From a virus: DNA of 47,461 bases. Numbering within the stretch: position 1 is the first letter of the stretch; each line of letters opens with the position of its first letter. Positions 27,083 to 47,338 of the stretch are shown one piece after another. A model generated the notes under the pieces. That model did not search any database. It had not been told where the DNA came from and saw only the letters and a list, made by a program, of their open reading frames with translations. The translations under genes and the position numbers were made by a program. The stretch spans positions 1 to 47,461 of IMG/VR virus record IMGVR_UViG_3300025109_000014; one strand, written 5' to 3'.

Positions 27083-27580
27083 ATGCCGTATTATACAGAT
27101 AATAACCGAATGAGCCCTAGAGCACAAGCAAGGGCTGCACTTAGAGAACTCTCTCGCAGATATGAGGAGGATCCCGATCAATTCTCAAATCATGACGCTG
27201 AATACGTAGCTAGGGCTGCATTTGAAGCTGGTATACCATTTGAGCCAGAAACAAAGAAGACTGAAAAGTTTTTCTTTGACTTAGCTGATACTGCTTTACT
27301 TGGCCTTATCCCCAACGAATGGCGACCACAAAAGGTGGCCGAAGAAATCTATGGTGAAACACATGGTGAACGATTTGTAGGAGACGTGGCTGGGTTAGTC
27401 GGCTTACTCATACCTGGGTACGGTATGTATAAAGGCATCGGAGCAATTAAAAAATCTGAACGCCTGAAGAAAGCTGGCAGTTATATGAGACAAAGCACAC
27501 CAGGTCAGATGGGAAGACGCGGATTAGATCGATATGCCGACAGATTATGGGGCGGAGTAGGTAATGTCGGCGGCTTTTAA
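27083..27580 (+). CDS. Small internal protein sharing its domain with the giant protein's N-terminus
   Basis: 165 aa. Residues about 10-130 look homologous to residues 3-110 of the next, 2933-aa protein. Both have a helix ending in P-[DE]-x-F-[ST], then A-x-x-[AS]-G-[IL]-x-[FW]-x-P, a [GA]-x-[IL]-x-G hydrophobic part, and a Gly-rich membrane-like segment (AGLVGLLIPGYGMYKGIGAI here; GHLAGFAPGIMAAPFKGIAK there). This suggests a common module for packaging into, or ejection from, the virion. The C-terminus is basic and Gly-rich. Confidence 0.6.
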   Translation: MPYYTDNNRMSPRAQARAALRELSRRYEEDPDQFSNHDAEYVARAAFEAGIPFEPETKKTEKFFFDLADTALLGLIPNEWRPQKVAEEIYGETHGERFVGDVAGLVGLLIPGYGMYKGIGAIKKSERLKKAGSYMRQSTPGQMGRRGLDRYADRLWGGVGNVGGF

Positions 27581-27599: not shown

Positions 27600-30500
27600 A
27601 TGCCTGAAATTAGTAGAATACAGGCTTTAATAAAACTATACCAACGTCAGCCAGAACTATTTACATCGGAACAAGCTGATGAATTAGGTAACATGGCTGA
27701 GTCTGCTGGCTTAAAGTGGAAGCCTAAGCCACAAGATTTTCATTTAATGAAGGCGTTAAGCCTTGCGTCCTCTGGTTTTATAGAAGGTTTTACAACCTTC
27801 GCTATAGGTAAGGACAAACCCAGCAATACATATGAGAGTATAGCGTATTCCCTTGGGCATCTCGCTGGATTTGCTCCTGGTATTATGGCTGCTCCATTTA
27901 AAGGCATCGCTAAGGGTGCTTCAAAGGTAGGCCTCCTCCCAATTACAAAAGTAGCTGAGACTGCAGCTAAAGGTGCTCAGACAATACACAAATACTCTAT
28001 TCCCATGATGTTCGGTGACATGGCCTCAACAGGAGTCGGAAAAGTTATGTCTAAAACTGGGCTTGAGGCTGTCAACTTTCTTAAGCGAGGCTCAGTTACT
28101 AGAGATATAGTACAGTCAGCTACACACCTTGGAGCAGCATCTGCTATATCTTCTGTATGGCATGGGCCAGATGAAATACTTAACTCGTTAGTTCATGGTG
28201 CAGTTGCAGGTGGTGCTTTTGGTGGCATAGGAAACTTTGTAAACCTAGGCAGGCTCATGAAATCTAAGAGCCCTGATCAAATAGCAAAAGCAGAGGCATT
28301 ACTAAGGACTGGTATAGGATCAACTATGCTTGGTCTACCAACTACCCTACAAGGAGAGCCCATTGAAATGCAGCTCTACCAGTATCTTTTAGGTGGGTTC
28401 TTTGGTTTCCAATCTATGCCATCACATATAAAGGAATCGCAGCGATTCTTTCAGGAAGACCTTTACTCTGGAGAATTTGGGTCACAATTTTATCCAGAGT
28501 CAAACAAAGTATGGTCTTCTATGAGCAAGAAAACACAAGATTATATTACATATGAGATGGATGTTCAGGCAAGAAGCTTTTTAAAAAACTTAGAAGTTCT
28601 TCCTAATATAGATCAATCTTTACGGGAGCTTGCTAAGGAACGCTTCTCCACCAACACCCCTTCTGAAAGACAAGTAGGCAAGATGGCAAGAGAGCTTGCG
28701 TATAATATCTATACGGGAGCTGAGGATATAATGATCGTGAAACCCGAAGGGGCATCATATAATGATGAACGAGAAGACTTTGACCAACCTATAAACATTA
28801 ATGCTCCTGATAAAGCAGAAAATCCTGTCGAAATAATTGAGATATACGAAGATGGTACAGCAAATGTTGTTCGTGCACGTGGAGAGTATCATGGAAACCG
28901 TGTCGGCTTGGGATATGAAGGACAAAGACCCACAGAACAGCTTGAAGGACAAGAATACGGCAACCTACAATATGTAACTGTTATTGATTCTAAGTCTAAA
29001 TTTAGAAAACTTAGTAACCCACTGTCACATAAGTTAAGCTTTGATTCTAAAGGAAACCCAGAACTTGTACCTACATTATCCCCTGAGCAGTGGCATGCGG
29101 TTGAACACCATCTTTATAATAAGAATAAATATATATACGGTGGTGTAAAAGATAAGGGTATCCTTCGTATACGTCCTTTACATATAGATACTTTTAAATA
29201 CTCTAAGGCGCAGATCATTAGATCACTAGCTACCAGTATGTCTCCCGATGGTAAACAAAAACTAGAACCCGCTAGATACGCTGAATTAAACAGATCATTT
29301 GCCGAGAGTGAGGCCAAAGAGATAGAATTCCTTGGTACGGACAATAAAAAAGTAAGAGAGATGCATGAAAAGAAATGGATCTCTAATGTCCTTTCGGAAA
29401 ATGAGCGTGAAGGATTCTATATTACAGGTAGAGACGACTTAAGTCTTATTGGATACAGCTTAGAAAAAGGAACCATTAAAAATGTTACCGATTGGAATAA
29501 ACGAGAACAGCTCCTATTTGATACAGGTATACCATTAAATCCTGATGTTATACCAGGCGGTATACTAAGCTATGCAATACTTAACGACCACAAATATGAA
29601 ATGCGTACCATCAAGGGTGGTGATAAGGAACCTCTTGAATCTGATACAGATGGTTCTATCTATATAAGAAGAAAAGTATATGATGAGATTGTAAACGCAC
29701 ACGACCTTCAAAATACAAGTATGCTAAAGCCTGTTATAGTATCTCGTAATGAAGGTGGTGTTATTCTAGTTAAATCTGCTGCCAGAAGAGCTACAAAAAA
29801 GATGGATAATTTCATGCGTGAAGAAGGACTTGATATGGTCTTCATGCGGTCGTCTGTTAAAGCAAAAGGAGTTACATTAAAAAGCAGTAACTATGAATTT
29901 GTAGATAATAAATACCGTGCATATGACATCGATATGCGAGTGATGCCCACTGAAGATGTAAGAATTAATACTACTACCAAAGAAGATTTTAAATCTGTTA
30001 ACCCAACTAAAATAGTACGGCAGTTATTCGGTCAAATATCAGACAACCCTATCTTATCTAAGTACATCTATAATAATATATATAAGCCAATCATAGAAGG
30101 CAATCCAGAGGTTAATGCACGGATAGATAATTATATCTCTACTGGAGACCCTTCTAAACTTGGTGATGTAAAAATCAATGATATACATCCTAAGACAATC
30201 CATAAGATTCTTGTGGATCTTCCTTCTACTGATCTTGCTCGGCGTATACGATCACAAATCATGAATCTAGATAAGACTGGCCAACTAGAGGGTATATATG
30301 ATTTTACACCTGAAGAGTGGAAACAATATGTTTACCGAAATAACAGAATTTTACAAGCATCTAACTTTGATGAGGCATTTACAAACCTGTACAAGTCAAC
30401 GCGTAAAAACTTTGAGTCAGCTTATAGAAAATATATTATATCTAGATACCTACAGCCAGTATATCCATACTCTGCTAAGGGATGGTTAGCGCCAAAAGAC

Positions 30501-33500
30501 TTAGAAAGAATCGTCACTGATGACGTTAAAGCTGGTGAGTTTATGTTAGATAACGGTCATAAGAAAATGAGAGTGCGTCTCAATAACGAAACAGCGGCCA
30601 GGGATAATATAAAAGTAGAGACCGATGGTTCATCTTCTTTAGGAGATGTCTGGAAAGGATACGAGAAGGCGATAAAAGACAAGAAGAATGTATTACAGTA
30701 TCTTGATGCTTTTGATTTTATGGCTATACGTGTCCCAGCTGATTCTATTAGTGGAGTACGTGTATTAAGATTTAAAGGATTTACTGGTGAACAAGGTGTA
30801 AGCATAGTTACTAACGCTAAAGATAACGACTATCTAGGGGGCGCAGATAAGGATAGTGACTCTGCATTCTTATACCAAGGGGTAGATAAGAAAGTTAGAG
30901 ATTACTTTGCAGAACACACAAATGAATGGGAGACCAACGGCATTTGGACTCCACCTAAAGATCCAGAGCTAGACGCTATATTTGGTAAAGGTGATACAGC
31001 TCCTTATGAACGTGTAGCCAGTAAGTTCTCTCCATCCATGCGTAAGATTGTAGCACGTTCAGCTGCCAAGGGTAATGACGGCTTAGGTTTTGGTGTACGT
31101 GCTAAAAATACGGTACAGGTGTGGTTTGAAACCATCAAAAATAATGGTGGAGAGATGAATTTTGATATAGCAGTTAAAAGTAAAGGAGGAAATTATTTCA
31201 ACGCCGTCTTACAAGTAAGAACAAAAGGAGATGGTACTGCACTCAAAAAACTAGGTAGAGAAATGGTCAACCGATCAGCCGACGCAGCTAATTACCCTGA
31301 AATGGTAGACTTTACTGAGTTTAGGAAGATCCTTTTTGATTCTTCTTTTGATGCTACTATTATATATGAGCATGGTAGACGAAAAGCTGCCACTTTTGAG
31401 GACATAAATAAATACACGCCTCTTTCAGATGCACATAAGCTTCAAAACATCATTAATCCATCTGGTAAAACAGATAGAAGTAAGTCTCCACGAGCTTTTA
31501 CACTTGACGAATTTCAGCAAGAGGTTGAAAACTTAAGTAATACTAGTGTCGATAACATCTACGGGCTTGCAGCTAAAGCTATGCATGCTGATGGTGTACA
31601 TAAGTCCGTTAGTATAAAGAACCTAGAGGCATACTACGATATAATTTTAGAGGCAAATGACATTTTTAAAGCAACCAATCCTAAGACTAGGAAGGAACAG
31701 CTATTTGTACGTAACCATCTTGCTCAGATAATAAAAAAAGTTGTAGTCGGTAGCAATAAGACTGTTAATGAAATGATTGAGGCAGGTAAATCATGGGAAA
31801 CTATACGAGACTTTGTTGCCAATGATACAGCATTAATTGCGTCATATAATACTTTAGCTAAGAAAGGATTTGATATATATAGAAGGCTTGTAAAGAATGG
31901 TGTTGTTAACCCAGAGGACGCAGTTAAAGACTTACTTAAACCTATTGCTAAACAAGCTACCAGATTAAAAGCTAAGTACGAAAACATTGATGACTCTGAA
32001 GAGCCAACTAGTGGATTTTTTACGGACTATGATAAAGAAGTAGCAGCTTATAAATCTGAGGTCCTAAACTTAAGCTCTTTATCAAACCAGCTCCCTATTC
32101 AATACTTACACGATTACTTTGACTTATGGCTTATTAGTCCCTTTAAGTACGGTGACTATAAGACACGTAAAGGTGGCATCTCTCGTATTCCACAGCAATC
32201 TTCATCTGTAAGCGACAGATCCTGGAAGATATTTACTGATGAGTATTCCAGATTATACAGACAAATTCGCGAGACTACAAAGCTTCCCAAATCGACTTCT
32301 AAAGTCGCCGCTCAGCTAAACAAAGAAAGATTAAAAGGAAGAGAGTATATAGACAACCTTGAAAAGTCAGATCCTGATAAGTTCCTGGCTTTCAACACAG
32401 CAAGATCTCTCGAAAGCGTTTTTAGGGAATTATCTGACGCAGAAATAATGTTAATGGAAGAGGGAAGCCCACAATATAGTGAACACCGTGCAGATAAAGC
32501 ATCTAATCGCAGCGCATGGGAAGAGGCAGGACTAGGAAAAGCTTTCAATAAAATGAAAGAACGCCCTAAAGCTGTAGAAATATTTATGAAAATTGTAGAT
32601 CATTTAGATATAGACCCTAAAATCAGAGAAGCATTAAAAAAAGAAGCATTAAATAAAATAGACCCTAGTGATGTATCACAAAAAATATCGCCAAGGATGA
32701 GGAAAAATGAGGTTCTTGCAAGAGCAACTGATAGAGAAATTGTTATAGACCCCAATGGAAATCTAATAATAACACCTTATTCTGATCCATTGTTTAAAAC
32801 AACTATGGGGGAAACTAAAGGCGTATCTTTTACAGATGACATTGCACATGTTAAGTTTTATGGAACAAAACGCGGTACTGAATATAATGTAATTTATCTC
32901 ACAAAAAAGGGTGCGGATATTTTAACAAAAGGAAAGAAAGTAATGGGAGGAGAGGAGTCTTTAAATGAAAACTTACAAGGCGAAATACGAGTTTCATCTG
33001 ACTCTCCCATAAAAATTCCCCGAGGAGAATATAGAGTTGAAAGAACGGGGCTTATCGCAGGTAAGTTTAGCGAAAAAATACTTAAGGCCGCTGAAGCTCC
33101 AGCAGTTACTCCTAAGGCCCCAGCATATACTCCTCCCGAAGATATCGTATTTACTCCACCTGGTAAGGCTAAAATACAAGAAGACCTAAATAAGTCTCGT
33201 AACTTTAAGGAAATACTTAAGGTTGTTAAGGCTAGCCCTACAATTAAGTCCGAAGATATAGACTTTATAATAAACGAGATGTCTAACGATCCTTTTTGGA
33301 AGGAGTATCCAGAAGACGCATTTATTGAGATGACTAAGTTATATGAGGGTGTAGGAAGAGACTTCTCTACTCTTACTGAGCATGATATACTCGTCATCAA
33401 AAATCATTTCATCCATATGAACGAAGTAATAAGTCAGAGCTTTAAGGACAAGATACTCAAAAAAGTATTCGGTAAGGACGTTGATACTAAAAAGATACAG

Positions 33501-36401
33501 CGTATCATCTACTGGAATAGACCTATTACTATTGATAAGCGGACTGCTCAATGGGAATCCAGAGCATTTGAACAGGCCACTCAGCCTGTCCGCTCATCTG
33601 ATAAGGTATACATGAGAGATGTTAAGCGTCCCATGAGTACCTATGGTGTACTTAGAGAATTTCTAACTAAGATGGTACATCAATCAGAAGTATCTGTTGG
33701 TGAGCTTAATCAGAAACTTCAGGAAGTATATAGACGTAGAGAAGAGCTAACAAACACAGAAGCTCATAAGCTATGGGATTTTGTAATACGTCTTCGTGAG
33801 GGTGACATAGAAGGAATTAATCCTAAAGAATTAAAGGCGTTTAAAGAGAAAGAATTTACTTTACATGAATATGAAATAGACCCTAAGACTAAAAAGAAAA
33901 AGCGTATCATTAAGAAATATACTGGCGAACAGCTTTTAGAATCTCTTGATAAGCGCCTTACTAAAGATCTAAAAAAGTTCTCTATGACTAACGTACATGC
34001 TTTAAATGAAAAAGGTGAACGTATAACTGAGGTAGATGATTGGAAGAGAGTAGATGAAGGATTTAAAGGCAAGCATGGTATACAGCTAAACAAGTGGCTG
34101 CATTGGAATGCAAAAGGAAAGTTTAACATTGATAGGTTCATGGAAAAGTTTGTCTACCCTACATACAAGGGTGACAAATTACCTGAGATACCCCTTGAGG
34201 TACTCATGCGTGTTCAATACGAACTTAAGCTAAACCAACTTGTCGACAGGAAGAAACTACGTGGCGATAAAGCCATGGCCTATCGTAACAAGTACAGAAG
34301 AAGTACGTTAAAAAATGACCTCGGTGAGACTCTTGACACCAAGTTTAAACCTATAGGTATACAGGATGAAAAAACCTATGTACCTCACACATGGGGAGAC
34401 AGACTAACAAAGGCACAACGTAAGGAGCTTTCTGGGTGGCTGACAGAGCAGACTAACGATATGTTAAAACGTGCACGTAAAGACCCAGACTCATTTAGAG
34501 ACATACTTATCGAATCTAAACGTAAAGAATATGACAAAACTGGTGATATGAGTATCATAGAAACAGCCGTTAGACAAGTCATGGAAGCACGTTACGAGCA
34601 GTTTTACGACGGTGTAATGTCGAATACTATGAATGCTGAGAAGCATGTTGCAGACTCCTTGTTCATTGATATGTCTTCTCCCGACGCTCTTAACCGTCTC
34701 ACACATTCTGGATTTTTTTCTAGGCCTGAGAATATCCTAGCCAGAGAATCGGAAATGCCTGGGTATCTTAGAGATCCACAGGTACTTGACCGCTATATGC
34801 GTACTGTTCTAATGGCACAGTACAAAAATTTAGCAGGTATCTTAGCTAATTATGAGATAGAGAACTTCAGAGTCTCTAAAAAGATAGGTAAGCATACAGA
34901 TGACTGGGCTGATTTTTATTCTCTCTATGTATGGGATTCATTTGGCAGGCCTACTACCTTTAACGAAAGAATTCTTCGTAAAATGAATGGTGAAGACCCA
35001 CTCAAATTCAAGTGGAATCCTTACTATGCTACCAGCGATCGACGAGTAATAGACACTATGGAACGCCTAAAAAAGATGTTCAATGGTAAACTCCCTTTTA
35101 AAGTCCCCGAAGGCGAGGAAGCTAGAGCCAGCTTTTTTGTACGTAAAGCACATCAGTTTGGTAGACTAGAAGCTAAATATGAGCTAATCACACTTTTAGC
35201 TCATAGTGGTGTAGCAGTGGGGAATATTTTTGGTGGCTCCAAAAACACTATAACTAAAACAGGGTTTAGAAACTTTAGAAGAGCTATGAGTTTTTCATGG
35301 ATCAAAAAGAACCTATTATTTGACCCAAATGGTAAACCTCTGCTATTTTTTGCTGACGGCAAGCCAGTTAAAACAAAAAAAGACCTCAATAGATGGGTTA
35401 TACAACAGGGTGTTGTAGAGCATTTCATTCAAAACGAGTTAGATTATAACCCTCGTCTAAGGGCATCTAAGAATTTTAATCAAGTTAAAGAGTTTTCTAA
35501 AGAGATGATAAAGATACTCAAACGCAATCCCGAAGCTAGCAATGAAACTTTAACAGAACTTGCAAGAAGATATGGTGTATTAGACCTCGTTACTAAAGTA
35601 GCAGCATTTCCTATGCAGGCCTCAGAGCGTTTTCTGAGACAAAATGCGTTCCTAGCTCATATGATACATAATTATGAAATGCTCGGTGGTCCTAGCTCAG
35701 GAATAGACTTTGGATCTAAAGCTATGGTTGAATTGGGTCTTAAAGGTGTAGAAAATACACAGTTCATTTATCATTCAGTAGGTCGTGCTCCTTCAATGCG
35801 TCCTGCACTAGGAAAGGTAGCATCACGTTTTAAGCTCTTTGTACAGAACCAGCTAGCCTTTAAAAGAGAAAGGTGGAACCATGCTAAGATATATGGTTTT
35901 AAGCCTGGTACAGAGCCATATGAGAGGTTTCAGCGTATGTTTATGTTTAACATTATGTCTATGGCACTGGCTACTATGTATGCACACTCTCTTTTTGATA
36001 CATCACTTGATCCACCTTGGGATTGGCTAAAGGAAACTTCAGAATGGTTATATGGTACAAAGCAAGAACGTAAAAGAGCTTTTTTTGGACAATATCATAG
36101 AGCAATAGCTCCACTACAAATAGTAACTCCACCAGTTGCACGAATACCTATTAGTGTATGGAACTCATTAATCAATAACGACTGGGCTAGGTTTGCTGAT
36201 TATCATGCCTGGACAATGGTTCCATTTGGACGCTTTGCTAGATCTGTTGATAAGACCTTCGATGAACCATATGGTACAACTTTCGGTAGAGGTATGCAGC
36301 AATTCTTTCGTTTACCTGTAGATAAGGTAACTGCTCGTTATAATAGAGCTCAGATTAACAAAGAAAGAAAACGAATGATTGACAATACTCTTACTTCTTA
36401 A
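27600..36401 (+). CDS. Giant virion protein with a multi-barrel RNA polymerase-like core
   Basis: 2933 aa. Residues 1-110 share a module with the preceding protein and include Gly-rich hydrophobic segments. A first barrel is suggested by MLKPVIV (708-714), VILVKSA with Lys725, and MVFMRSSVKAKG with Lys754. The second barrel shows AIRVPADSISGVRVLRF (1042-1058, Arg1044 and Pro1046) and the loop GGADKDSDS with Asp1083, Asp1085 and Asp1087. Order and spacing agree with single-chain DxDxD RNA polymerases of crAss-like phages and YonO. A possible ADP-ribosyltransferase-like module lies near 1700-1800. A Pro-rich linker (about 1827-1860) leads to a 1070-aa helical C-terminal half. Likely packaged and injected to transcribe early genes. 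Polymerase activity is inferred. Confidence 0.7.
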   Translation: MPEISRIQALIKLYQRQPELFTSEQADELGNMAESAGLKWKPKPQDFHLMKALSLASSGFIEGFTTFAIGKDKPSNTYESIAYSLGHLAGFAPGIMAAPFKGIAKGASKVGLLPITKVAETAAKGAQTIHKYSIPMMFGDMASTGVGKVMSKTGLEAVNFLKRGSVTRDIVQSATHLGAASAISSVWHGPDEILNSLVHGAVAGGAFGGIGNFVNLGRLMKSKSPDQIAKAEALLRTGIGSTMLGLPTTLQGEPIEMQLYQYLLGGFFGFQSMPSHIKESQRFFQEDLYSGEFGSQFYPESNKVWSSMSKKTQDYITYEMDVQARSFLKNLEVLPNIDQSLRELAKERFSTNTPSERQVGKMARELAYNIYTGAEDIMIVKPEGASYNDEREDFDQPININAPDKAENPVEIIEIYEDGTANVVRARGEYHGNRVGLGYEGQRPTEQLEGQEYGNLQYVTVIDSKSKFRKLSNPLSHKLSFDSKGNPELVPTLSPEQWHAVEHHLYNKNKYIYGGVKDKGILRIRPLHIDTFKYSKAQIIRSLATSMSPDGKQKLEPARYAELNRSFAESEAKEIEFLGTDNKKVREMHEKKWISNVLSENEREGFYITGRDDLSLIGYSLEKGTIKNVTDWNKREQLLFDTGIPLNPDVIPGGILSYAILNDHKYEMRTIKGGDKEPLESDTDGSIYIRRKVYDEIVNAHDLQNTSMLKPVIVSRNEGGVILVKSAARRATKKMDNFMREEGLDMVFMRSSVKAKGVTLKSSNYEFVDNKYRAYDIDMRVMPTEDVRINTTTKEDFKSVNPTKIVRQLFGQISDNPILSKYIYNNIYKPIIEGNPEVNARIDNYISTGDPSKLGDVKINDIHPKTIHKILVDLPSTDLARRIRSQIMNLDKTGQLEGIYDFTPEEWKQYVYRNNRILQASNFDEAFTNLYKSTRKNFESAYRKYIISRYLQPVYPYSAKGWLAPKDLERIVTDDVKAGEFMLDNGHKKMRVRLNNETAARDNIKVETDGSSSLGDVWKGYEKAIKDKKNVLQYLDAFDFMAIRVPADSISGVRVLRFKGFTGEQGVSIVTNAKDNDYLGGADKDSDSAFLYQGVDKKVRDYFAEHTNEWETNGIWTPPKDPELDAIFGKGDTAPYERVASKFSPSMRKIVARSAAKGNDGLGFGVRAKNTVQVWFETIKNNGGEMNFDIAVKSKGGNYFNAVLQVRTKGDGTALKKLGREMVNRSADAANYPEMVDFTEFRKILFDSSFDATIIYEHGRRKAATFEDINKYTPLSDAHKLQNIINPSGKTDRSKSPRAFTLDEFQQEVENLSNTSVDNIYGLAAKAMHADGVHKSVSIKNLEAYYDIILEANDIFKATNPKTRKEQLFVRNHLAQIIKKVVVGSNKTVNEMIEAGKSWETIRDFVANDTALIASYNTLAKKGFDIYRRLVKNGVVNPEDAVKDLLKPIAKQATRLKAKYENIDDSEEPTSGFFTDYDKEVAAYKSEVLNLSSLSNQLPIQYLHDYFDLWLISPFKYGDYKTRKGGISRIPQQSSSVSDRSWKIFTDEYSRLYRQIRETTKLPKSTSKVAAQLNKERLKGREYIDNLEKSDPDKFLAFNTARSLESVFRELSDAEIMLMEEGSPQYSEHRADKASNRSAWEEAGLGKAFNKMKERPKAVEIFMKIVDHLDIDPKIREALKKEALNKIDPSDVSQKISPRMRKNEVLARATDREIVIDPNGNLIITPYSDPLFKTTMGETKGVSFTDDIAHVKFYGTKRGTEYNVIYLTKKGADILTKGKKVMGGEESLNENLQGEIRVSSDSPIKIPRGEYRVERTGLIAGKFSEKILKAAEAPAVTPKAPAYTPPEDIVFTPPGKAKIQEDLNKSRNFKEILKVVKASPTIKSEDIDFIINEMSNDPFWKEYPEDAFIEMTKLYEGVGRDFSTLTEHDILVIKNHFIHMNEVISQSFKDKILKKVFGKDVDTKKIQRIIYWNRPITIDKRTAQWESRAFEQATQPVRSSDKVYMRDVKRPMSTYGVLREFLTKMVHQSEVSVGELNQKLQEVYRRREELTNTEAHKLWDFVIRLREGDIEGINPKELKAFKEKEFTLHEYEIDPKTKKKKRIIKKYTGEQLLESLDKRLTKDLKKFSMTNVHALNEKGERITEVDDWKRVDEGFKGKHGIQLNKWLHWNAKGKFNIDRFMEKFVYPTYKGDKLPEIPLEVLMRVQYELKLNQLVDRKKLRGDKAMAYRNKYRRSTLKNDLGETLDTKFKPIGIQDEKTYVPHTWGDRLTKAQRKELSGWLTEQTNDMLKRARKDPDSFRDILIESKRKEYDKTGDMSIIETAVRQVMEARYEQFYDGVMSNTMNAEKHVADSLFIDMSSPDALNRLTHSGFFSRPENILARESEMPGYLRDPQVLDRYMRTVLMAQYKNLAGILANYEIENFRVSKKIGKHTDDWADFYSLYVWDSFGRPTTFNERILRKMNGEDPLKFKWNPYYATSDRRVIDTMERLKKMFNGKLPFKVPEGEEARASFFVRKAHQFGRLEAKYELITLLAHSGVAVGNIFGGSKNTITKTGFRNFRRAMSFSWIKKNLLFDPNGKPLLFFADGKPVKTKKDLNRWVIQQGVVEHFIQNELDYNPRLRASKNFNQVKEFSKEMIKILKRNPEASNETLTELARRYGVLDLVTKVAAFPMQASERFLRQNAFLAHMIHNYEMLGGPSSGIDFGSKAMVELGLKGVENTQFIYHSVGRAPSMRPALGKVASRFKLFVQNQLAFKRERWNHAKIYGFKPGTEPYERFQRMFMFNIMSMALATMYAHSLFDTSLDPPWDWLKETSEWLYGTKQERKRAFFGQYHRAIAPLQIVTPPVARIPISVWNSLINNDWARFADYHAWTMVPFGRFARSVDKTFDEPYGTTFGRGMQQFFRLPVDKVTARYNRAQINKERKRMIDNTLTS

Positions 36402-36997: not shown

Positions 36998-37030
36998 ATT
37001 CTACTCTTCTAAAAAACACACCCTATACAA

Positions 37031-37149
37031 ATAGAGAAAGTAACAGGTGAAGTGGAGTCCTTTGGCCTGCCATTATAGCCCACTTCCTTACCGCCAAATA
37101 AGACCTGTTATATGGTGTTAAAGGAGGAAACTTCACCATCTTTCTCTAT
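37031..37149. ncRNA. Three-way-junction RNA with pseudoknot between convergent operons
   Basis: P1 pairs 37031-37040 with 37140-37149 (10 bp). Stem A pairs 37041-37048 with 37103-37110 (8 bp) and continues with 37049-37055 pairing 37080-37086 (7 bp), leaving a 16-nt bulge. Stem B pairs 37112-37117 with 37134-37139 (6 bp). TTTGGC in the stem A loop (37061-37066) is complementary to GCCAAA in the bulge (37093-37098), giving a pseudoknot. Linkers are 0-1 nt. All pairs are Watson-Crick, so strand is undecided. It may protect or end both transcripts. No U tract adjoins the closing stem. Confidence 0.65.
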
Positions 37150-37157
37150 AATATCTA

Positions 37158-37343
37158 TTATTCTAAGAACCTCTTTGACCACCAGTCGCTAAACTCATCC
37201 TCTTTTCTCGGCTGTTTATATCCTCTCATATACTCACGCATATAAAGCGCTCTTTTTGAGGGATTTTTCTTACGTGGTCTTCCGCTTGACACTTTATATC
37301 CGTTAGCTCTTGTGGTTCCTTTTGGTCTTCCTGCTTTTGCCAT
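37158..37343 (-). CDS. Small AT-hook-like DNA-binding protein
   Basis: 61 aa, very basic. It has two GRP cores, GRPKG (residues 5-9) and GRPRK (21-25), as in AT-hook peptides that grip the minor groove of AT-rich DNA. The C-terminal half is Tyr/Arg-rich (YMREYMRGYKQP) with an acidic patch. It could organise phage or host DNA or affect transcription. It is the last gene of the leftward operon, beside the structured RNA. Confidence 0.55.
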   Translation of the reverse strand: MAKAGRPKGTTRANGYKVSSGRPRKKNPSKRALYMREYMRGYKQPRKEDEFSDWWSKRFLE

Positions 37344-37344
37344 G

Positions 37345-37569
37345 TTACTTCCTTTCTTTTCTTTCTTTTTTCGTTGTGGGGTTCTCTTTAATGTATATCA
37401 TCTTTTGCAATCTTGAGGGAACCTGTTTAATCAGTGCATCTAACCCCCATATCTTACCATTGATATAATTATCATGGTTGTGATGGTATTCGCCCTTTTT
37501 TACTTCTGTCGAGCATATCCCACAGGAATAGGTTTCCTCTGAAATCTGTTCATATACTGTCTGTTTCAT
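37345..37569 (-). CDS. Small Cys/His protein, possible endonuclease VII/HNH-like
   Basis: 74 aa. CGIC (residues 16-19) and HHNHDNYINGKIWGLDAL (about 29-46) recall the C-x-x-C ... D-H-x-H-x-x-G-x-V-R-G-L block of phage recombination endonuclease VII. The second Cys pair of that family is missing and the protein is short, so it may be only a zinc-binding protein or a reduced nuclease. It overlaps the upstream gene by 20 bases. Confidence 0.4.
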   Translation of the reverse strand: MKQTVYEQISEETYSCGICSTEVKKGEYHHNHDNYINGKIWGLDALIKQVPSRLQKMIYIKENPTTKKERKERK

Positions 37570-37741
37570 TCTCTATCCTCACACAGCTATCACAATGTCC
37601 AAATGAATCTAAACCATCGTGATATAGTTGTGGCAACCTGTTAAGTAAACCTTCTATTAGTTCTTCAAAGGTAACTTCATCTGGATTTTCCTTGTCAGAA
37701 TCAACTGTAAAGGCAACATCAAACATATGATTATATTTCAT
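37550..37741 (-). CDS. Hypothetical 63-aa acidic protein
   Basis: Sequence FDVAFTVDSDKENPDEVTFE followed by ELIEGLLNRL: a beta strand, then a helix, as in many small phage early proteins. A late C-x-x-C (HCDSCVRI) is present. Preceded by GGAGGAAA, a strong ribosome binding site. The role is unknown. Confidence 0.6.
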   Translation of the reverse strand: MKYNHMFDVAFTVDSDKENPDEVTFEELIEGLLNRLPQLYHDGLDSFGHCDSCVRIENETDSI

Positions 37742-37754
37742 TTTCCTCCCATTC

Positions 37755-37925
37755 TTAAGTTCCGATTTCTATAATGAATTCTTTCCATTCTTCATTAAAG
37801 TGATATGGTTTTTCCACTACATCTATTATTCTGCAAGCTTCAAATTGTTTGGTGTCTACTAACCATCTCAAGAATAGTGGGAATGTGTCTGATCTTATTA
37901 TAGTAAGTGTATCTGTCTCTTTCAT
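37755..37925 (-). CDS. Hypothetical 56-aa early protein
   Basis: A short gene with ATG at 37925 preceded by GGAGATTAA. The product begins MKETDTLTIIRSDTFPLFLR and ends EFIIEIGT. It has a mix of strand and helix and one Cys. Its ends fit tightly between the neighbours, abutting the upstream stop. The function is unknown. Confidence 0.6.
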   Translation of the reverse strand: MKETDTLTIIRSDTFPLFLRWLVDTKQFEACRIIDVVEKPYHFNEEWKEFIIEIGT

Positions 37926-38120
37926 TTAATCTCCTAGTTTCCAAAAGACTTCATCAACAGGACTATCTTTACTTATTTCAACAAATGTTTCTTCCGTATC
38001 AACAGGTAAGTCAAATGCATAAACCATACTTATATCAAAATCCCCTATGTTAGTATCATCAGGTATTTCTACAGAGCAAGTATAAGTTTCAGTTATAGTA
38101 CATTTATATTTTTTGGACAT
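37926..38120 (-). CDS. Hypothetical 64-aa early protein
   Basis: Acidic, with an alternating beta-like N-terminus (MSKKYKCTITETYTCSVEIP). GGAGAAAG precedes the start. It is the first gene after the large structured noncoding stretch, so its ribosome binding site lies at the 3' edge of that RNA. The function is unknown. Confidence 0.6.
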   Translation of the reverse strand: MSKKYKCTITETYTCSVEIPDDTNIGDFDISMVYAFDLPVDTEETFVEISKDSPVDEVFWKLGD

Positions 38121-38131
38121 TAGCTTTCTCC

Positions 38132-38211
38132 TTTATTAAAATTAAAAATGGCTGTTGCTGTCGCAACATTTAAGCAACTGCCGAAATTTGCCACCATTTT
38201 ATTAAAATTAA
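38132..38211. repeat. 14-bp direct repeat flanking a hairpin
   Basis: TTTATTAAAATTAA occurs at 38132-38145 and 38198-38211. Between and partly within the copies, AAAATGG and CCATTTT pair around an inner TGTTGC/GCAACA stem. The repeat may mark an ancient duplication or insertion, or be part of the RNA's 3' domain. Confidence 0.7.
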
Positions 38212-38656
38212 TAGAAGAAGCGAGAGGTCTGACCTTTTTCACACCACATATCCACGTGACTTAGTGCTACTCGCTCCTTCTATATAATAGAGACTAGAGC
38301 CATAGCGTAATTGTCTCTTAGTTTCGGTACCTTCCTTACTGGCAATGCCCAGCCTCTACAAATTATAGGCAGTGTCGTGACAGGCCGCACTCCTCGTCAC
38401 GGAGTTCCGTTTAGTCATCGATTATGTTTCTTTACAAGAGCTTTTATCTCATTCAATGGTAGTGCCTAACAGTGTTAGGTACCTGGAATAAACTTAGTGT
38501 AACTTCTCAGGACTGCCATTGCTCTAGTTACATACTCTTAAGACGAAATCGCCTCCACTGCCTATATTATGGAGTCTTGGCTGCTACCCACCATGCCAAC
38601 TACTTTTGCTTATGAGTTCGCTTCTTATGCATTTTAGACTCCAACGCGTCTTGTTC
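38132..38656 (-). ncRNA. Large multi-branched noncoding RNA candidate
   Basis: About 525 nt without a credible gene, inside the leftward operon. Pairings (plus coordinates): 38571-38577/38636-38642; 38364-38374/38556-38566 (11 bp perfect, closing a multi-branch domain); inside it 38541-38545/38550-38554, 38498-38504/38526-38532, 38465-38470/38474-38479 extended by 38458-38461/38480-38483, and 38376-38381/38396-38401; then 38289-38294/38313-38318, 38212-38224/38270-38282 (13 bp), and 38145-38151/38194-38200 with 38153-38158/38163-38168 inside. Two stems have G-U pairs only on the minus strand. Size and ornateness resemble large phage RNAs such as ROOL or GOLLD; identity is not shown. Confidence 0.65.
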
Positions 38657-38785
38657 TCATTTGCGTTCCCTATAGTATTCTATTGCTGTTTGTACACCGA
38701 ATACTATGAGAAATATCGCTATTACTAAGAATATTAGACTCCATGCTAATACCCATATATTAGCTATCCAGGTATATATCTGCAT
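38657..38785 (-). CDS. Tiny single-pass membrane protein (42 aa)
   Basis: ATG at 38785 overlaps the upstream stop (TAATG) and follows GGAGGAATAA. MQIYTWIANIWVLAWS continues with LIFLVIAIFLIVFGVQTAI, a long hydrophobic span, then a charged tail (EYYRERK). Such small membrane proteins are common in phage early operons and often act against host functions. The role here is unknown. Confidence 0.65.
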   Translation of the reverse strand: MQIYTWIANIWVLAWSLIFLVIAIFLIVFGVQTAIEYYRERK

Positions 38786-39138
38786 TATTTATTCCTCCAA
38801 TTTGGGTCGATCTTATCTCTAATATGGTCAGTAAATTCAGACATAAGATCAAACAAGAACTCAGCTGGAATAGATACCATTAATTTTCCATTGTCTTCCC
38901 TAAAGAATACTCCCCATTCATCTTTCTCAGGATATAGCCACTGGGCACAGCTTTTCCGACGTTTGCAGCCAAAGTAGATTGTGCTTATCTCAACATCTCC
39001 TTGTTCGTGCTGAGCACCACCTCGATCTCTATTCCAAGCACCTAAACCATATGTCTTGGCAGTCTTAACTACTTGTCTCTGTAGCTCTGCTCCCCTCTGA
39101 CGATTCCTCTTCCCTCTCTGCTGATTCGTTTTCTTCAT
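38785..39138 (-). CDS. PD-(D/E)xK nuclease, Holliday-junction resolvase-like
   Basis: 117 aa. RGAELQRQVVKTAKTYGL supplies the first helix Glu. GDVE (Asp48) and GCKRRKS (57-63) align with D-(x)n-E-x-K of Hjc-like resolvases. QWLYPEKDEWGVFFREDNGK and LMVSIPAEFLFDL give the typical C-terminal strands and helix. It would resolve branched DNA before packaging. The Glu of E-x-K is Gly here (GCK), so the active site is altered or Glu50 has taken over. It overlaps the next gene by about 74 bases. Confidence 0.55.
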   Translation of the reverse strand: MKKTNQQRGKRNRQRGAELQRQVVKTAKTYGLGAWNRDRGGAQHEQGDVEISTIYFGCKRRKSCAQWLYPEKDEWGVFFREDNGKLMVSIPAEFLFDLMSEFTDHIRDKIDPNWRNK

Positions 39139-39391
39139 ATGTTTTTAACATTCCTTCTATGTCTGATGCTAGCTTATCATAGTCGTCTATTACAGTCTCC
39201 CAAAAATCAAATGACGCAAGTTTACTAACTATTATATCTTTCTTAAGCCACTCATATAAGCTATTCATACCGTTGTGCGCTGCCTTTGGATGGTGTTTGT
39301 GGTTTCTTATGAAGTACCTCAAAGAAAACAACACTTTTGATACTTCGCTTATTGAAAACTTTATTGTCATGCTTCCTTCTTTGTCTGTCAT
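39065..39391 (-). CDS. Hypothetical helical early protein
   Basis: 108 aa from the ATG at 39391, which shares ATGA with the upstream stop. Internal ATGs at 39370 and an upstream in-frame start at 39400 are also possible. The core (VSKVLFSLRYFIRNHKHHPK, FWETVIDDYDKLASDIEGML) is helical and the C-terminus is a highly acidic Glu/Ser tail. No family is recognised. The position between primase and resolvase suggests a DNA-metabolism helper. Confidence 0.55.
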   Translation of the reverse strand: MTDKEGSMTIKFSISEVSKVLFSLRYFIRNHKHHPKAAHNGMNSLYEWLKKDIIVSKLASFDFWETVIDDYDKLASDIEGMLKTYEENESAEREEESSEGSRATETSS

Positions 39392-39582
39392 GGTTTCCAC
39401 TTATTCCATATAGAAAACCCTACAAATGTCTCTAATGGCCCTAAACCAATACCAAAGTGCATATGTTCACCACGTTTTGACGTGAAGCTACAGCTTAAAG
39501 AGAGAATCCAAAATAATATTAAACTTATTCCATTTGTATTATTCTTTGATAACTTCTTTATCTTAATCATTGATCTCCCCAT
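39388..39582 (-). CDS. Small membrane-type protein (64 aa)
   Basis: One hydrophobic segment (GISLILFWILSLSCSF) after a basic N-terminus, then a Gly-rich end. The start may be 39582 or the ATG at 39570. It overlaps both neighbours slightly. The function is unknown; a membrane location is likely. Confidence 0.45.
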   Translation of the reverse strand: MGRSMIKIKKLSKNNTNGISLILFWILSLSCSFTSKRGEHMHFGIGLGPLETFVGFSIWNKWKP

Positions 39583-39752
39583 GTTTTCTTAATATCACTC
39601 TTACTCTTATAAAGCAGATTCACTACTCTCACTACCAATGAAGATACGGATTGACCCTTCTTTACTTTCTTTAATATAAGACCGACATAGAAATCTATCA
39701 GCTTTCTATGACTATGTATTTGTCTTGAACCTCTATTATTTGCTGTATCCAC
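39567..39752 (-). CDS. Hypothetical 61-aa basic protein
   Basis: Basic helical protein (KLIDFYVGLILKKVKKGQSV, LLYKSKSDIKKTWGDQ), overlapping the primase-helicase stop. It could be a small nucleic-acid-binding partner of the primase. No family is recognised. Confidence 0.45.
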   Translation of the reverse strand: MDTANNRGSRQIHSHRKLIDFYVGLILKKVKKGQSVSSLVVRVVNLLYKSKSDIKKTWGDQ

Positions 39753-41517
39753 TATTGATCCTTTCTAACTCTTTAAAACTAAATGTATTATAGTTAAATT
39801 TAAGAGTCAATGCAAAACTGTGCTCATCTCTGGATGCAATAGACTTAATGAATCTCTTGTCACTTATGTCTTTGTCGCCTTCGATTCCTAGGATTTTATC
39901 AGCTTTCTGTTCTATTACCGAGTTACCTTTTGCACTATGTACGTCTAAGTAGTCTCTACTAGCACCCTTAGATATATGAGATATTGCTAGTATAATTGTG
40001 TTACTTCTATTGGCTATTTCTCTTAACCCTAGAATTACCTTTTCTGTTTTCTTGAATGGATCATATACTTTGTCAACATATATAGTATCTAAAGTATCTA
40101 CGACTATTATATTTGGACGTAGCTCATCTACTAATTCTTTAATTGCTCCTATTTCTGGTGATACTGTAATTATATTAATATGACCTATGCTACTCTTTAT
40201 TAGTTCGAAATTAGACTCATTATAATGTAAATCGTATATATCCTGCTTACTCTTGTCGAGTGCTATTTGCAGAAATCTACGATACATGAGGGAGTCCCCC
40301 ATTTCTAGACTTAAATAGAGGATGCTCATATTCTTAAGTGCAATACATATATTTTGAAGCCATGCTGTCTTACCTACCTTTGTATCTCCAATAACAACGG
40401 CTAGCTCTCCTGGATAGAACCTATAAGGATTCTTTAAGCTTTTATATATATCCTGAAGATCGAAACTAGATGTATCTAGGTCTTGGTTCATGAACTCGAT
40501 GAAGTTCTTATTGAGAACTTCAACATTCATTATTTCAAGCCCCCAATCTTTATTCTTATAGAATCTGCATAATGGATCACAATATTTATGAAGTATTACA
40601 TCACTACATGAATAACCTGTGTGATTCCATTTATATACATCCTCTATCATGCGGTCTATTTCTTCCTCACCTAAAGATGGAGACCATGAATTACCTAGTA
40701 ATCTAGATGCTTCTTTAGCTAGTCCTAGTCTTTTCCATCCATTAATCAGCCTGAGCAATATAGTATGTCTTTTTCCTACCTGGTCTTTTTCATTATATAT
40801 CTTTTGTATGCAGGTTACATTAGCCGTATAGTCATCAGATTTTGGTTTCTTTATTTCTTTAACTTCGGCTACTCTAACTATCTTTGAGTTCCATATTACT
40901 TCAGGAGATTCCAATGGCGGGTGACTATAGTCTTTCCTTATTGTTTTAGCTAACTCAGCTATTTTTAAATAGTCCATATTAAACAGTTCCCGCAACTGTA
41001 GGGGTGTCTTATACAATCCACTCTTGCTATTATATGAGTAGCCTATTTTTATGATCCTTCCTTTGTCGTATATATTATCAGGAATGTCACTAAAGTTTTC
41101 TGCTATAGTAGCTTTAACTATTTGTGGCAAATTCCTGCTCTCTTGAAACCCAAACAAATCTGGTATTTCAATATGGAAGCCTCTTCCAGAAAACCATACT
41201 CTTATGTCTTCTTCGGAGACTCCCATTTCTTTTAGCTCTTCTACAAATGCACAGGTGGCTTGATAAACTAGAGAGTCTCCCATAATCTCATTGCTGATAT
41301 CAATATCAAAAATAATCTTATCAAGACTATATGTTCCTTTATAGTCTTTAATTGTACCACTATTTTTGAAATGATCTGGAGCTGATTCGTCTAATAAGAA
41401 AATGCTTCTATATATTTCTCTATTTGGTCTTATATATTTATAGAGATTTTTTAGCTCTTCTACATTTCCTCTATTGTTAACTGCTCCGACTGCAATTTCA
41501 ACGTATTTAGTATCCAT
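39736..41517 (-). CDS. Replicative primase-helicase (AEP primase fused to RecA-like helicase)
   Basis: 593 aa. The N-terminal archaeo-eukaryotic primase shows FDID (Asp71, Asp73), SGRGFHIEI (110-118, His115) and a third block GRIIKIGYSYNSKSGLYKTP. A Cys cluster (CSDVILHKYCDPLC, 304-317) may bind zinc. The C-terminal RecA-like domain has Walker A GDTKVGKT (377-384), a phosphate-sensing acidic strand ILYLSLEMG, Walker B IIVVD (470-474) and ISHISKG (512-518), as in DnaB-type helicases. It would unwind the phage DNA and make primers, or act as the replisome core with a host polymerase. No phage DNA polymerase is seen in the window. Confidence 0.85.
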   Translation of the reverse strand: MDTKYVEIAVGAVNNRGNVEELKNLYKYIRPNREIYRSIFLLDESAPDHFKNSGTIKDYKGTYSLDKIIFDIDISNEIMGDSLVYQATCAFVEELKEMGVSEEDIRVWFSGRGFHIEIPDLFGFQESRNLPQIVKATIAENFSDIPDNIYDKGRIIKIGYSYNSKSGLYKTPLQLRELFNMDYLKIAELAKTIRKDYSHPPLESPEVIWNSKIVRVAEVKEIKKPKSDDYTANVTCIQKIYNEKDQVGKRHTILLRLINGWKRLGLAKEASRLLGNSWSPSLGEEEIDRMIEDVYKWNHTGYSCSDVILHKYCDPLCRFYKNKDWGLEIMNVEVLNKNFIEFMNQDLDTSSFDLQDIYKSLKNPYRFYPGELAVVIGDTKVGKTAWLQNICIALKNMSILYLSLEMGDSLMYRRFLQIALDKSKQDIYDLHYNESNFELIKSSIGHINIITVSPEIGAIKELVDELRPNIIVVDTLDTIYVDKVYDPFKKTEKVILGLREIANRSNTIILAISHISKGASRDYLDVHSAKGNSVIEQKADKILGIEGDKDISDKRFIKSIASRDEHSFALTLKFNYNTFSFKELERINSGYSK

Positions 41518-41825
41518 GTTGCTTCCTTACTTTTAGTAGGTTTTCTAGTAACACTATATACACCGATCTTTTCTAGATCAGATGATCCGTTTGATTTCAT
41601 GGCTCTCCATGCTCTGCTATAACTAGAAGGATTATGCTTAAGCCTCCAGTTGCTATCTCCGTATCTTGGTAGAATATCCTCAAAATGATGAGAACTTATC
41701 TCATTGTCACCCACGTTTAACCGAGCGTCTAGAAAGAACAATATTATTTCTTTTATTGTAAACTTCCTAGACTTCGACACTTTTGTCCCAAGGCCCTGAC
41801 ATTGGAGAGTCTCCATTTGTACCAT
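41460..41825 (-). CDS. Winged-helix-like small protein upstream of the primase
   Basis: 121 aa at the longest frame; the start is uncertain because it overlaps the next gene by 59 bases (a GTG at 41780 is a shorter option). The core (KFTIKEIILFFLDARLNVGD, HHFEDILPRYGDSNWRLKHN, SSYSRAWRAMKSN) suggests a helix-turn-helix fold. It overlaps the primase-helicase start by 58 bases, so translation is probably coupled. A replication accessory or transcription factor is possible. Confidence 0.5.
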   Translation of the reverse strand: MVQMETLQCQGLGTKVSKSRKFTIKEIILFFLDARLNVGDNEISSHHFEDILPRYGDSNWRLKHNPSSYSRAWRAMKSNGSSDLEKIGVYSVTRKPTKSKEATWILNTLKLQSEQLTIEEM

Positions 41826-42330
41826 TTATTGATTCAGGTTTATAGACATTCTTTACCCAACCTTCATCAATAGCTTTCTTAAATCTAGCTAGAAGTGCGT
41901 CTTCCTGACCTACTTTTGCTACAGTATGCCAATCTCTCCAGCCTATGGATCCATCTTTAGGCTTAATGTATTTAAAGCTAAGTCTTAGAAATTCTCTTCC
42001 TATTGCTTTCTCAAGACCATCTTGATCTTTCTTGAATACAAAGTCATCAATACCTTTTCCTAAGCCTATGGCCTGCATTAGTATCTTTACTCTTACAGAT
42101 GATCCGTATGTTTTATTACCAGACATTTTATCTACTTTATGAAGACCACCTATATACATTGTTGGGTTAAAATCTCTTCCTATGTCTAGTGTTAATGATA
42201 CACCAACATCATCAGCTTTTTCCTGCCAATGCTGTTTTGTATCATAGAATGCCTCGATATCCAGTATAGTTACTGGCTGTAATGAAACATTCTTTGTTGA
42301 TTTGCTGCTATCCCCATAATCTAAGGCCAT
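41767..42330 (-). CDS. Candidate ssDNA-binding protein
   Basis: 187 aa. The beta-rich middle (VSLTLDIGRDFNPTMYIGGL, GSSVRVKILMQAIGL, LRLSFKYIKP) resembles OB-fold single-strand binding proteins of phages, and the neighbours are a primase-helicase and an annealing-type protein. A classic acidic C-terminal tip is absent (ends PWDKSVEV). It could coat ssDNA during replication and recombination. No firm signature is visible. Confidence 0.4.
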   Translation of the reverse strand: MALDYGDSSKSTKNVSLQPVTILDIEAFYDTKQHWQEKADDVGVSLTLDIGRDFNPTMYIGGLHKVDKMSGNKTYGSSVRVKILMQAIGLGKGIDDFVFKKDQDGLEKAIGREFLRLSFKYIKPKDGSIGWRDWHTVAKVGQEDALLARFKKAIDEGWVKNVYKPESINGTNGDSPMSGPWDKSVEV

Positions 42331-42335
42331 TATAA

Positions 42336-42938
42336 TTATCTCCTATCAGCTATTAGTTTTTGGATTCTTGATATTTCGTCAGCTGCTTCTATAACAGTTA
42401 TATCTTTCTTAAGCCACTCATATATATCTGCTTTTTCAGCCTTGTCGATATGTATGCTTTTAGATAGTCCTTCTATTACTATTAGTTGAGCTGGACTAAT
42501 GCTATCATCTAATGGTTCTGCTGCTACTTTCTTTTCCTTGAACTCATCAGCCTCTTCCTCAGAATATATATAACCGTGTATGCCAGCTAGCTTTAGAATT
42601 ACTCTGTCCTTAGCTCGTTTTTCTGCCATAGCATACGGATATTTATTTGTAGTATTTGATGGATGGGATTCACCTATACTCCAAATATTACTTGTATTGT
42701 CTGTGCCTGGATTTGATATATATCCTGTTACAAGAATAACAGCTGTTCCAGTGGAATAGTCACCTTCTATTATAGTTGGTTCCCGAAAGTGTATATTCAT
42801 CATTCTTGCAATTTTTTCGATGTATTTATGGTACATTACCCAAGTACCATGACAATTCCATAATGCTTCTTTTGGGTCTATTTCATATTCTTCCAAAAGA
42901 GCCATTATCTCATTACTTATTGGTTTCATGGGGCTCAT
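42336..42938 (-). CDS. Candidate single-strand annealing protein (Rad52-fold-like)
   Basis: 200 aa. The segment YPYAMAEKRAKDRVILKLAG (about 97-116) and the following IHGYIYSEEEADEF are a conserved signature in many phage recombination modules. They recall the Rad52/Erf family, where A-x-K-x-A-x-x-D-A-x-K-R-A lies at the same place. The N-terminal half (YIEKIARMMNIHF, AVILVTGYISNPG) is alpha/beta. The last 50 residues form a helical tail. It would anneal complementary strands in recombination-dependent replication. It sits next to the SSB candidate. Confidence 0.45.
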   Translation of the reverse strand: MSPMKPISNEIMALLEEYEIDPKEALWNCHGTWVMYHKYIEKIARMMNIHFREPTIIEGDYSTGTAVILVTGYISNPGTDNTSNIWSIGESHPSNTTNKYPYAMAEKRAKDRVILKLAGIHGYIYSEEEADEFKEKKVAAEPLDDSISPAQLIVIEGLSKSIHIDKAEKADIYEWLKKDITVIEAADEISRIQKLIADRR

Positions 42939-42956
42939 GTGGGCCTCCTAAGTTAG

Positions 42957-43745
42957 TTAAGCTATTGCAAACCTTTTAGTTGTTTCATCATGCAAATCTA
43001 AATGTTTTTGCATAATCTTATCTGGTGGAGTACTCTTTAATGAATCAGTGATACTATTATAGAGAGTCCACACATTCTTGCTATCTTGAAATGCTGTATA
43101 TGATGGTTCTTTCCATTCTGATATTGCATGGTTTAGCTGTCTCGGCCTTAATAGACCATGGCCATATAGCAATCCCATGTATTCATATGCTTGATCATCA
43201 GTTACGTTGATATTTTTCATTCTATTTGCATCTTCTTGAATCTTTGGAAAGTTTGTCTGACTCTTATATATAGTAGTAATCATTGAGTCTTTAAGGTCTT
43301 CCCAAACATTGGTAGTATGCTTTCTCATTATGACAATTTCACCTGTTAATGCGAGATTATCACAAACAAATACTGTAGCACCCATTACCATACCAACACT
43401 CATGCTTTTATCATAGGAATTACGTATTGCTATATTTAATCCTAGATCTGCTGATCTATCCCTATCTTTATATTTAGAGTTATTTGTTGTTGGTACTTCA
43501 TGTGGGTCTATATCATTTGATCTATATGTTAACATACCAAACATTCTGTTACCTTCTTTAGCTACAGCATATTTAGCATGATCAAACCTATAGTCCTTCA
43601 GCATGTCATTAGCAATCTTACAAGCCATTGTAACTAAATCATAGTGACCTACTGGCTGATAAGATTTAGTTGCTTTAGGTGGCTCATATGTTAATAGATC
43701 CAAATAGTCGACTGCTTTTCCACCACAATGAATCATCATTCCCAT
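42957..43745 (-). CDS. DUF932-like phage protein
   Basis: 262 aa. The block LNIAIRNSYDKSMSVGMVMG, followed by ATVFVCDNLALTGEI and KHTTN, matches the core of DUF932 phage/plasmid proteins, where an R-N-S-x-D-x-S strand and a V-F-V-C-D-N-L segment are typical. The exact role of the family is unknown. It is often found in replication or early regions, as here. The start ATG at 43745 is two codons before a second Met. Confidence 0.55.
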   Translation of the reverse strand: MGMMIHCGGKAVDYLDLLTYEPPKATKSYQPVGHYDLVTMACKIANDMLKDYRFDHAKYAVAKEGNRMFGMLTYRSNDIDPHEVPTTNNSKYKDRDRSADLGLNIAIRNSYDKSMSVGMVMGATVFVCDNLALTGEIVIMRKHTTNVWEDLKDSMITTIYKSQTNFPKIQEDANRMKNINVTDDQAYEYMGLLYGHGLLRPRQLNHAISEWKEPSYTAFQDSKNVWTLYNSITDSLKSTPPDKIMQKHLDLHDETTKRFAIA

Positions 43746-43747
43746 TT

Positions 43748-43948
43748 TTAATTCTCCTTACGTGTTTCTGCGTTATGCATTCCTTCTTTAGTGTCCCAGC
43801 CACAACTCATGCAGACGTATCCATCGCATACTTCTTCATATGCTAATACATCTTCCATTTTGTTGACTGGAATAAATCTTATTTCAGGTGTTAGCTCTTC
43901 CTCACACTCAGGACATTCTAAGTCTCCATAATATAGGCGGCCTATCAT
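43748..43948 (-). CDS. Zinc-ribbon early protein
   Basis: 66 aa. Two Cys pairs, CPEC (residues 12-15) and CMSC (46-49), give a zinc ribbon. Acidic elsewhere. It abuts the DUF932 gene and overlaps the next gene by 4 bases (ATGA). It may bind nucleic acid or a host factor. The function is unknown. Confidence 0.6.
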   Translation of the reverse strand: MIGRLYYGDLECPECEEELTPEIRFIPVNKMEDVLAYEEVCDGYVCMSCGWDTKEGMHNAETRKEN

Positions 43949-44169
43949 GGCTGCATTCTTAGAAGATTTCTAGCGTAAGTTACCTGGCTAGCTAATACCC
44001 TATCATTTTTTGTGTATGATCTTTGTTCAATAGCTCTATAGGCGGGCTTTCTATTCTTACTAACGAACTCCTTTAGCTCCGTGCTATCCATTAATCTTAT
44101 TTTATCATATGGTGAGCGAGTACTTAATTGAAATGACTCTTTTAGTATTATTAAGTAATGTCCTATCAT
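43945..44169 (-). CDS. Hypothetical 74-aa basic protein
   Basis: Helical and basic (STELKEFVSKNRKPAYRAIE, YTKNDRVLASQVTYARNLLR). It is coupled to the following zinc-ribbon gene by ATGA. It may bind nucleic acid. No family is recognised. Confidence 0.5.
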   Translation of the reverse strand: MIGHYLIILKESFQLSTRSPYDKIRLMDSTELKEFVSKNRKPAYRAIEQRSYTKNDRVLASQVTYARNLLRMQP

Positions 44170-44178
44170 TGTGTGACC

Positions 44179-44908: not shown

Positions 44909-44958
44909 GATATATCTCCTTTGTCATGGCACCAGAATGCCACTAAAGAGGGAGTCAC

Positions 44959-46743: not shown

Positions 46744-46793
46744 TTTATTCTCCTTTGTTTTAAATATATATGATAGTAGCTACTTAGCCCCTT

Positions 46794-46986: not shown

Positions 46987-47008
46987 CTATACTACTTACT
47001 TCTGTTGG

Positions 47009-47272: not shown

Positions 47273-47338
47273 TTGGAGTCTCCTTTATTTTAATTTGGCA
47301 TACCATTGTGATATACCAAGAATGAGGGAGTGTATTTA

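Follow-up and report, generated by a model that had tools for sequence, protein, structure and literature searches.

Among the relatives of all cellular RNA polymerases, the two-barrel single-chain RNA polymerases (RNAPs) are the simplest; packaging in virions has been described for them chiefly in crAss-like phages, in jumbo phages and in phage P23-45. The N4-like virion RNAP (Schitoviridae) is a giant podovirus virion protein with a central polymerase, which has the T7-type right-hand fold and is unrelated to the two-barrel enzymes. In crAss-like phages, gp66 is packaged and transcribes the early genes (PMC7886860), and crassvirus cargo proteins are thought to partly unfold and traverse the tail before the DNA (PMC10172136). 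In P23-45, gp96 carries an RNAP within a giant, tape-measure-fused virion protein and transcribes the pre-early genes; coupling of DNA entry with transcription has been proposed for it, and N4-related fusions are mentioned in the same work (PMC10770324). Here we analyse a 47,461-base marine phage record, IMGVR_UViG_3300025109_000014 ("the window" denotes this whole stretch). The penultimate long open reading frame (ORF) of its rightward late operon, at 27600–36401 (+) and followed by one small gene, encodes a protein of 2933 residues, hereafter the giant. Residues ~480–1345 of the giant are very probably a single-chain two-barrel DNA-dependent RNAP homologous to gp66, and with this we infer packaging, ejection and early-gene transcription.

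Conservation, profile matches and predicted fold

The initial annotation, made from the DNA letters, had read a "Crass/YonO-like" RNAP core at 29721–30866 from five peptides. All five are present once each, exactly where it had placed them: MLKPVIV (residues 708–714, beginning at nucleotide 29721), VILVKSA (721–727), SSVKAKG (751–757), AIRVPADSISGVRVLRF (1042–1058) and GGADKDSDS (1080–1088); the end of the span lay one residue too far. DxDxD occurs only once in the entire giant. In an alignment of 58 sequences (the window, 56 viral loci and one contig of a metagenome-assembled genome, MAG), the catalytic residues that had been picked without any alignment coincide with conserved columns. S595, N596, K634, S681, D684, K710, K725, K754, Q808, G834, P953, L1014, R1044, P1046, G1052, R1054, G1060, F1061, G1081, D1083, D1085 and D1087 show one exception at most, if any, and S751, Y1078, A1227 and D1228 are nearly invariant; outside the RNAP region only G90, F91, G265 and F268 are equally conserved. 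Loss of D1083, D1085 or D1087 from homologues had been named beforehand as evidence against a polymerase. All three are kept in every aligned homologue, both here and in 37/37 rows of alignment A2, as are K710, K725 and K754, which lie upstream on the same chain in the first barrel. One subgroup has DVDGDK, the classical form, in place of DKDSDS.

To compare the family with the crAss polymerases we used hhalign. With gp66 as a single sequence nothing was found, and a crAss profile of eight sequences (gp66 and seven crAss or Flavobacterium-phage polymerases) was therefore needed. Against it the family profile matched at barrel two over 58 ungapped columns with a score of 52.0 and E = 5.9e-5 (1.1e-5 with A1), whereas the reversed profile reached 26.4, none of 30 column shuffles exceeded 19.4, and the N- and C-terminal blocks of the giant itself scored 15–20. 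A separate alignment matched barrel one in the M--(D/I)--SxxK region (E = 5.3e-5, score 35.2 versus a shuffle maximum of 19.0). The two matches come in the same order along the chain, and the spacing from R1044 to D1083 is 40 residues in both the giant and gp66, without gaps.

A comparison of the predicted structure with gp66, which the initial annotation had proposed, led to the same relative. For an AlphaFold2 model of residues 480–1345 built on 37 homologues, the sole Foldseek match in the PDB below 1e-3 was 6VR4, the packaged crAss-like RNAP phi14:2 gp66 (probability 1.00; Table 1), followed by RNAP largest subunits from cells and jumbo phages. In a viral structure library the best matches were unnamed proteins; the named ones at E < 1e-8 include several crAss phages, and P23-45 A7XX94 appears at E = 0.01. 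By fold match only, the module is predicted to contain two double-psi beta-barrels, whose absence had been the other outcome named beforehand as speaking against a polymerase. Further along the chain, the N-x-S-A-D motif aligns with gp66 LNAFVDNAKDPYI, but the score is within the shuffle range.

Conserved catalytic-type residues together with a significant profile match at each barrel therefore argue strongly for a crAss gp66-type two-barrel RNAP in the giant, carried by podovirus-like phages of ~40–50 kb outside the crassviruses, on a basis of homology, conserved catalytic residues, predicted fold and gene position. Several points weigh against this assignment. Searching the PDB by sequence with the giant returned nothing even at E = 10. 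The hhsuite probabilities are modest, at 65% for barrel two (82% with A1) and 67% for barrel one. Compared with 6VR4, the model has a query-normalised global template modelling (TM) score of 0.41 and a root-mean-square deviation of 18.7, so either the domain arrangement differs or insertions intervene. The alignment of the bridge-helix/trigger-loop region with crAss is suggestive but not significant alone, falling within the shuffle range. Finally, the packaging, catalytic activity and promoter choice of the giant are what we infer. As for the label first given to the core, the crAss kinship stands by fold and by profiles at both barrels, while the YonO part does not, a comparison of hidden Markov models having shown no similarity.

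Proposed role and alternative explanations

Given its position in the late operon and the precedents above, the giant is probably carried in the virion and starts early transcription. In such a scheme barrel one would provide the conserved lysines and barrel two the Mg-binding triad D1083/D1085/D1087 along with R1044-x-P1046, with a long bridge-type helix coming after it. The giant would be made late together with the structural proteins, packaged, and ejected with or before the DNA, probably by means of the conserved blocks at its N- and C-terminus. Once inside the host, it would transcribe the leftward early genes before the host polymerase takes over or is needed.

The alternative that survives best, although we consider it unlikely, is that the polymerase is made during infection and serves middle or late genes without being packaged. 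Non-virion two-barrel RNAPs of this kind exist, namely P23-45 gp64 (PMC10770324) and YonO (PMC5467207), but the known ones are compact (YonO has 839 residues), whereas the polymerase here is fused to large conserved blocks without an enzymatic signature. Moreover, the gene stands at the end of the structural operon and not among the early genes, and of the relatives with a solved structure the nearest is packaged. It is a good deal less probable again that the two-barrel domain is catalytically dead or repurposed, acting as a structural or ejection part only. Strong divergence and the other conserved blocks of the giant would fit such a role, but the three Asp, the three Lys and R-x-P are invariant or nearly so down to ~20% identity to the window. 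Since a dead enzyme would not need these residues, their invariance counts against it.

That the polymerase takes RNA as its template, of which QDE-1/RDR enzymes are capable, and not phage DNA seems very improbable, and we know of no RNA-copying role in phages. QDE-1-type RNA-dependent RNA polymerases do fall in the same clade of single-chain enzymes (PMC10770324), but this is a double-stranded DNA phage with an ordinary late operon, and gp66, its polymerase's nearest relative, serves to transcribe early genes of the phage (PMC7886860). A chance or convergent motif in a protein that is no RNA polymerase, which the absence of a Pfam or PHROG match might favour, is contradicted by the conservation, the fold match and two independent profile matches, and we give it next to no weight.

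The motif ATTCTTGRTATAT has three exact matches in the window (0.01 expected). Two of them lie in non-coding sequence at the divergent ends, one ahead of the early and one ahead of the late genes, and both are preceded by ACTCCC. Because ATTCTTGRTATAT was chosen after inspection we treat it only as a lead, and these sites are possible phage promoters.

Gene order, flanking blocks and the wider family

The rightward genes of the window comprise terminase, a P22-type portal (matching P22_portal and phrog_156), an SU10-type major capsid protein (matching SU10_MCP), tail-fibre-like genes and structural genes, and then the giant (Table 1). Homologues of the small gene directly before it lie immediately upstream of the giant ORF in the relative loci listed. 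The leftward block includes a primase/DnaB-type helicase (39736–41517; DnaB/primase match). Besides the giant, no RNA polymerase was recognised among the window proteins scanned, and no T7-type polymerase match was found in the window. A 33-nucleotide repeat pair (39226–39258 and 42392–42424, 94% identical) was also seen in the leftward block, apparently within coding sequence. A near-identical contig, L008, bridges the window ends 1–250 and 47440–47461 through its positions 2074–4524, with ~2.4 kb between; the window therefore lacks ~2.4 kb of a genome of ~50 kb that is circular or permuted.

Table 1. Features of the window and the basis for each (pLDDT, predicted local distance difference test; pTM, predicted TM-score)
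Feature	Position	Strand	Basis
Candidate promoter motif ATTCTTGATATAT ahead of rightward genes (weak lead)	451..463	+	Site kept in L006–L009
Small gene directly upstream of giant gene, kept beside it	27083..27580	+	Homologues in 14/20 relative loci
Giant virion-operon protein with predicted RNA polymerase inside, 2933 residues	27600..36401	+	ORF; giants of the family at 56 viral loci and on 1 MAG contig
Conserved Gly-rich N-terminal block, residues 1–300	27600..28499	+	Conservation 0.33–0.62 per 50-residue block
Modelled RNA polymerase module, residues 480–1345	29037..31634	+	AlphaFold2 pLDDT 86.6, pTM 0.85; Foldseek 6VR4 E = 1.4e-12
Predicted barrel one, ~residues 655–800, with S681-D684-G685, K710, K725, K754	29562..29999	+	Invariance; hhalign to crAss profile
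Predicted barrel two core, residues 1036–1093, with R1044-x-P1046 and putative metal-binding D1083/D1085/D1087	30705..30878	+	Invariance; hhalign to crAss profile
Long helix after barrel two, residues 1145–1181, candidate bridge helix	31032..31142	+	37-residue helix, model positions 666–702
N-x-S-A-D motif, residues 1222–1234, candidate trigger-loop region	31263..31301	+	A1227, D1228 nearly invariant
Variable region, ~residues 1350–1900, from polymerase to C-terminal block	31647..33299	+	Conservation ~0–0.1 at residues 1551–1850
Conserved, mostly helical C-terminal block, residues 1900–2900	33297..36299	+	40 invariant columns; model pLDDT 71.8
Leftward, presumably early, gene block; expected polymerase template	37023..47437	-	ORF layout, strand switch
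Candidate promoter motif ATTCTTGGTATAT ahead of leftward genes (weak lead)	47311..47323	-	Site kept in L008

Along the giant, three conserved blocks (residues 1–300, 500–1250 and 1900–2900) are separated by variable linkers. The N-terminal block, with G86, G90, F91, P93, G200, G204, G205 and G208 among its invariant residues, may be a packaging or ejection element. The model of the C-terminal block matched no known fold. A weak match to the uncharacterised phrog_11358 was found in 17/32 members, in the window's giant near the C-terminus. There is no clear transmembrane segment in the giant, zero 19-residue windows having a mean hydropathy above 1.4.

The family is poorly reached by direct searches. 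Sequence searches with the giant gave no match in Pfam, PHROGs or PDB, tblastn of 50,697 phage records, queried with three family members, gave none, and viral contigs scanned directly with the RNAP region of the window returned nothing. Relatives were instead gathered through the portal and capsid protein (~150 related contigs), and when the RNAP region was searched in 50 of these records it matched 19, including 17/17 of those of at least 34 kb. A profile from the first matches then recovered the 56 viral loci and the one MAG contig. Identity to the window is ~20–39% over the RNAP region, and complete giants span 2.4–3.7 thousand residues. The sources are uncultured, mostly marine phages sharing the P22-type portal and SU10-type capsid protein. 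The only match among species genomes, L260 (DIAL01000052.1), is a 5.3-kb Flavobacteriaceae MAG contig, which is a weak hint that the hosts, like those of crAss-like phages, are Bacteroidota.

Some members depart from the common plan. In L249 (protein 5767–9387), L254 (2105–5785) and L240 (1533–4490) whole domains are inserted within the polymerase; one such insertion, an AlkB-like 2OG-Fe(II) oxygenase (PF13532, E = 6e-26), separates the DxDxD barrel from the next helix, and another, a DUF4326-like domain, separates the two barrels. The record IMGVR_UViG_3300030329_002114 (88,986 bases; L249 and L258) encodes two different giant polymerase proteins ~48 kb apart; either the assembly is a chimera that joins two phages, or a single phage has two virion polymerases. 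The subgroup L250, L252, L256, L257 and L248 has R-N-P or R-S-P, and DA for DG ahead of the first Lys, and looks closer to P23-45 gp96 (RNP...DFDGD).

Comparison with described polymerases

No account of the family turned up in the papers available to a literature search, and some members may already be listed in earlier work, such as the two-barrel RNAP survey that accompanies PMC10770324 (Supplementary Data 3/4) or the publication on gp66. We lean somewhat towards the view that marine podovirus-like phages (~35–50 kb, P22-type portal) include a large lineage not described before, with a crAss-related RNAP as its universal ejected giant. One polypeptide would then serve both genome entry and first transcription, and the gp66-type virion polymerase would predate or stand outside Crassvirales. 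The polymerase analysed here adds a diverse family (58 sequences) in small phages, missed completely by current annotation libraries; it extends the gp66 type beyond Crassvirales and supplies a wide range of divergent sequences from which the minimal catalytic core can be defined. It also predicts early transcription independent of the host polymerase in a set of uncultured marine phages.

YonO of SPbeta (PMC5467207) resembles the giant in having two barrels and DxDxD in one chain, but it has 839 residues and is unfused and prophage-encoded. A YonO-like RNAP was rejected, the single-sequence hhalign score being 22.6 (E = 0.11) and off the active site, and the giant being not compact at 2933 residues. 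P23-45 gp96 likewise holds a two-barrel RNAP inside a giant protein of the virion, with RNP...DFDGD, but that protein is a siphovirus tape measure of 5002 residues and the fold is clamp-less. A gp96-type RNAP fused to a tape measure protein was also rejected (single-sequence hhalign 18.2, E = 0.43; P22-type portal in the window phage).

The closest likeness is to gp66 of Cellulophaga phage phi14:2 (PDB 6VR4, 2180 residues), which we identified by length and sequence as Phi14:2_gp077 (KC821624), annotated as a structural protein by tandem mass spectrometry. Both are single chains in which the barrel-one Lys motif is followed by R-I/V-P and then DxDxD, and in both the polymerase sits within a large protein. 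The giant differs in its flanking blocks, and local identity is ~20% or less. Furthermore, phi14:2 is a crassvirus with a 100-kb genome, while the window phage, at ~50 kb, has an SU10-type major capsid protein and a P22-type portal and, unlike crassviruses, no recognised neighbouring giants of the kind associated with the crAss RNAP. A crassvirus-encoded RNAP was rejected on the portal, the capsid protein and the lack of tblastn similarity between the giant and any crAss record, and we therefore regard the giant as a relative, not a member, of the Crassvirales RNAPs. The initial annotation had held a polymerase of this type in such a genome to be a new setting. As a setting the ~50-kb podovirus-like phage does appear to be new, while the fusion to a virion protein has a precedent in P23-45 gp96 (PMC10770324). 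The enzyme class and the fusion of RNAP to large virion proteins were already known. New, as far as available tools and papers show, is the setting in podovirus-like phages of ~50 kb that have a P22-type portal and lie outside Crassvirales, and so are the flanking blocks and the breadth of diversity within the family.

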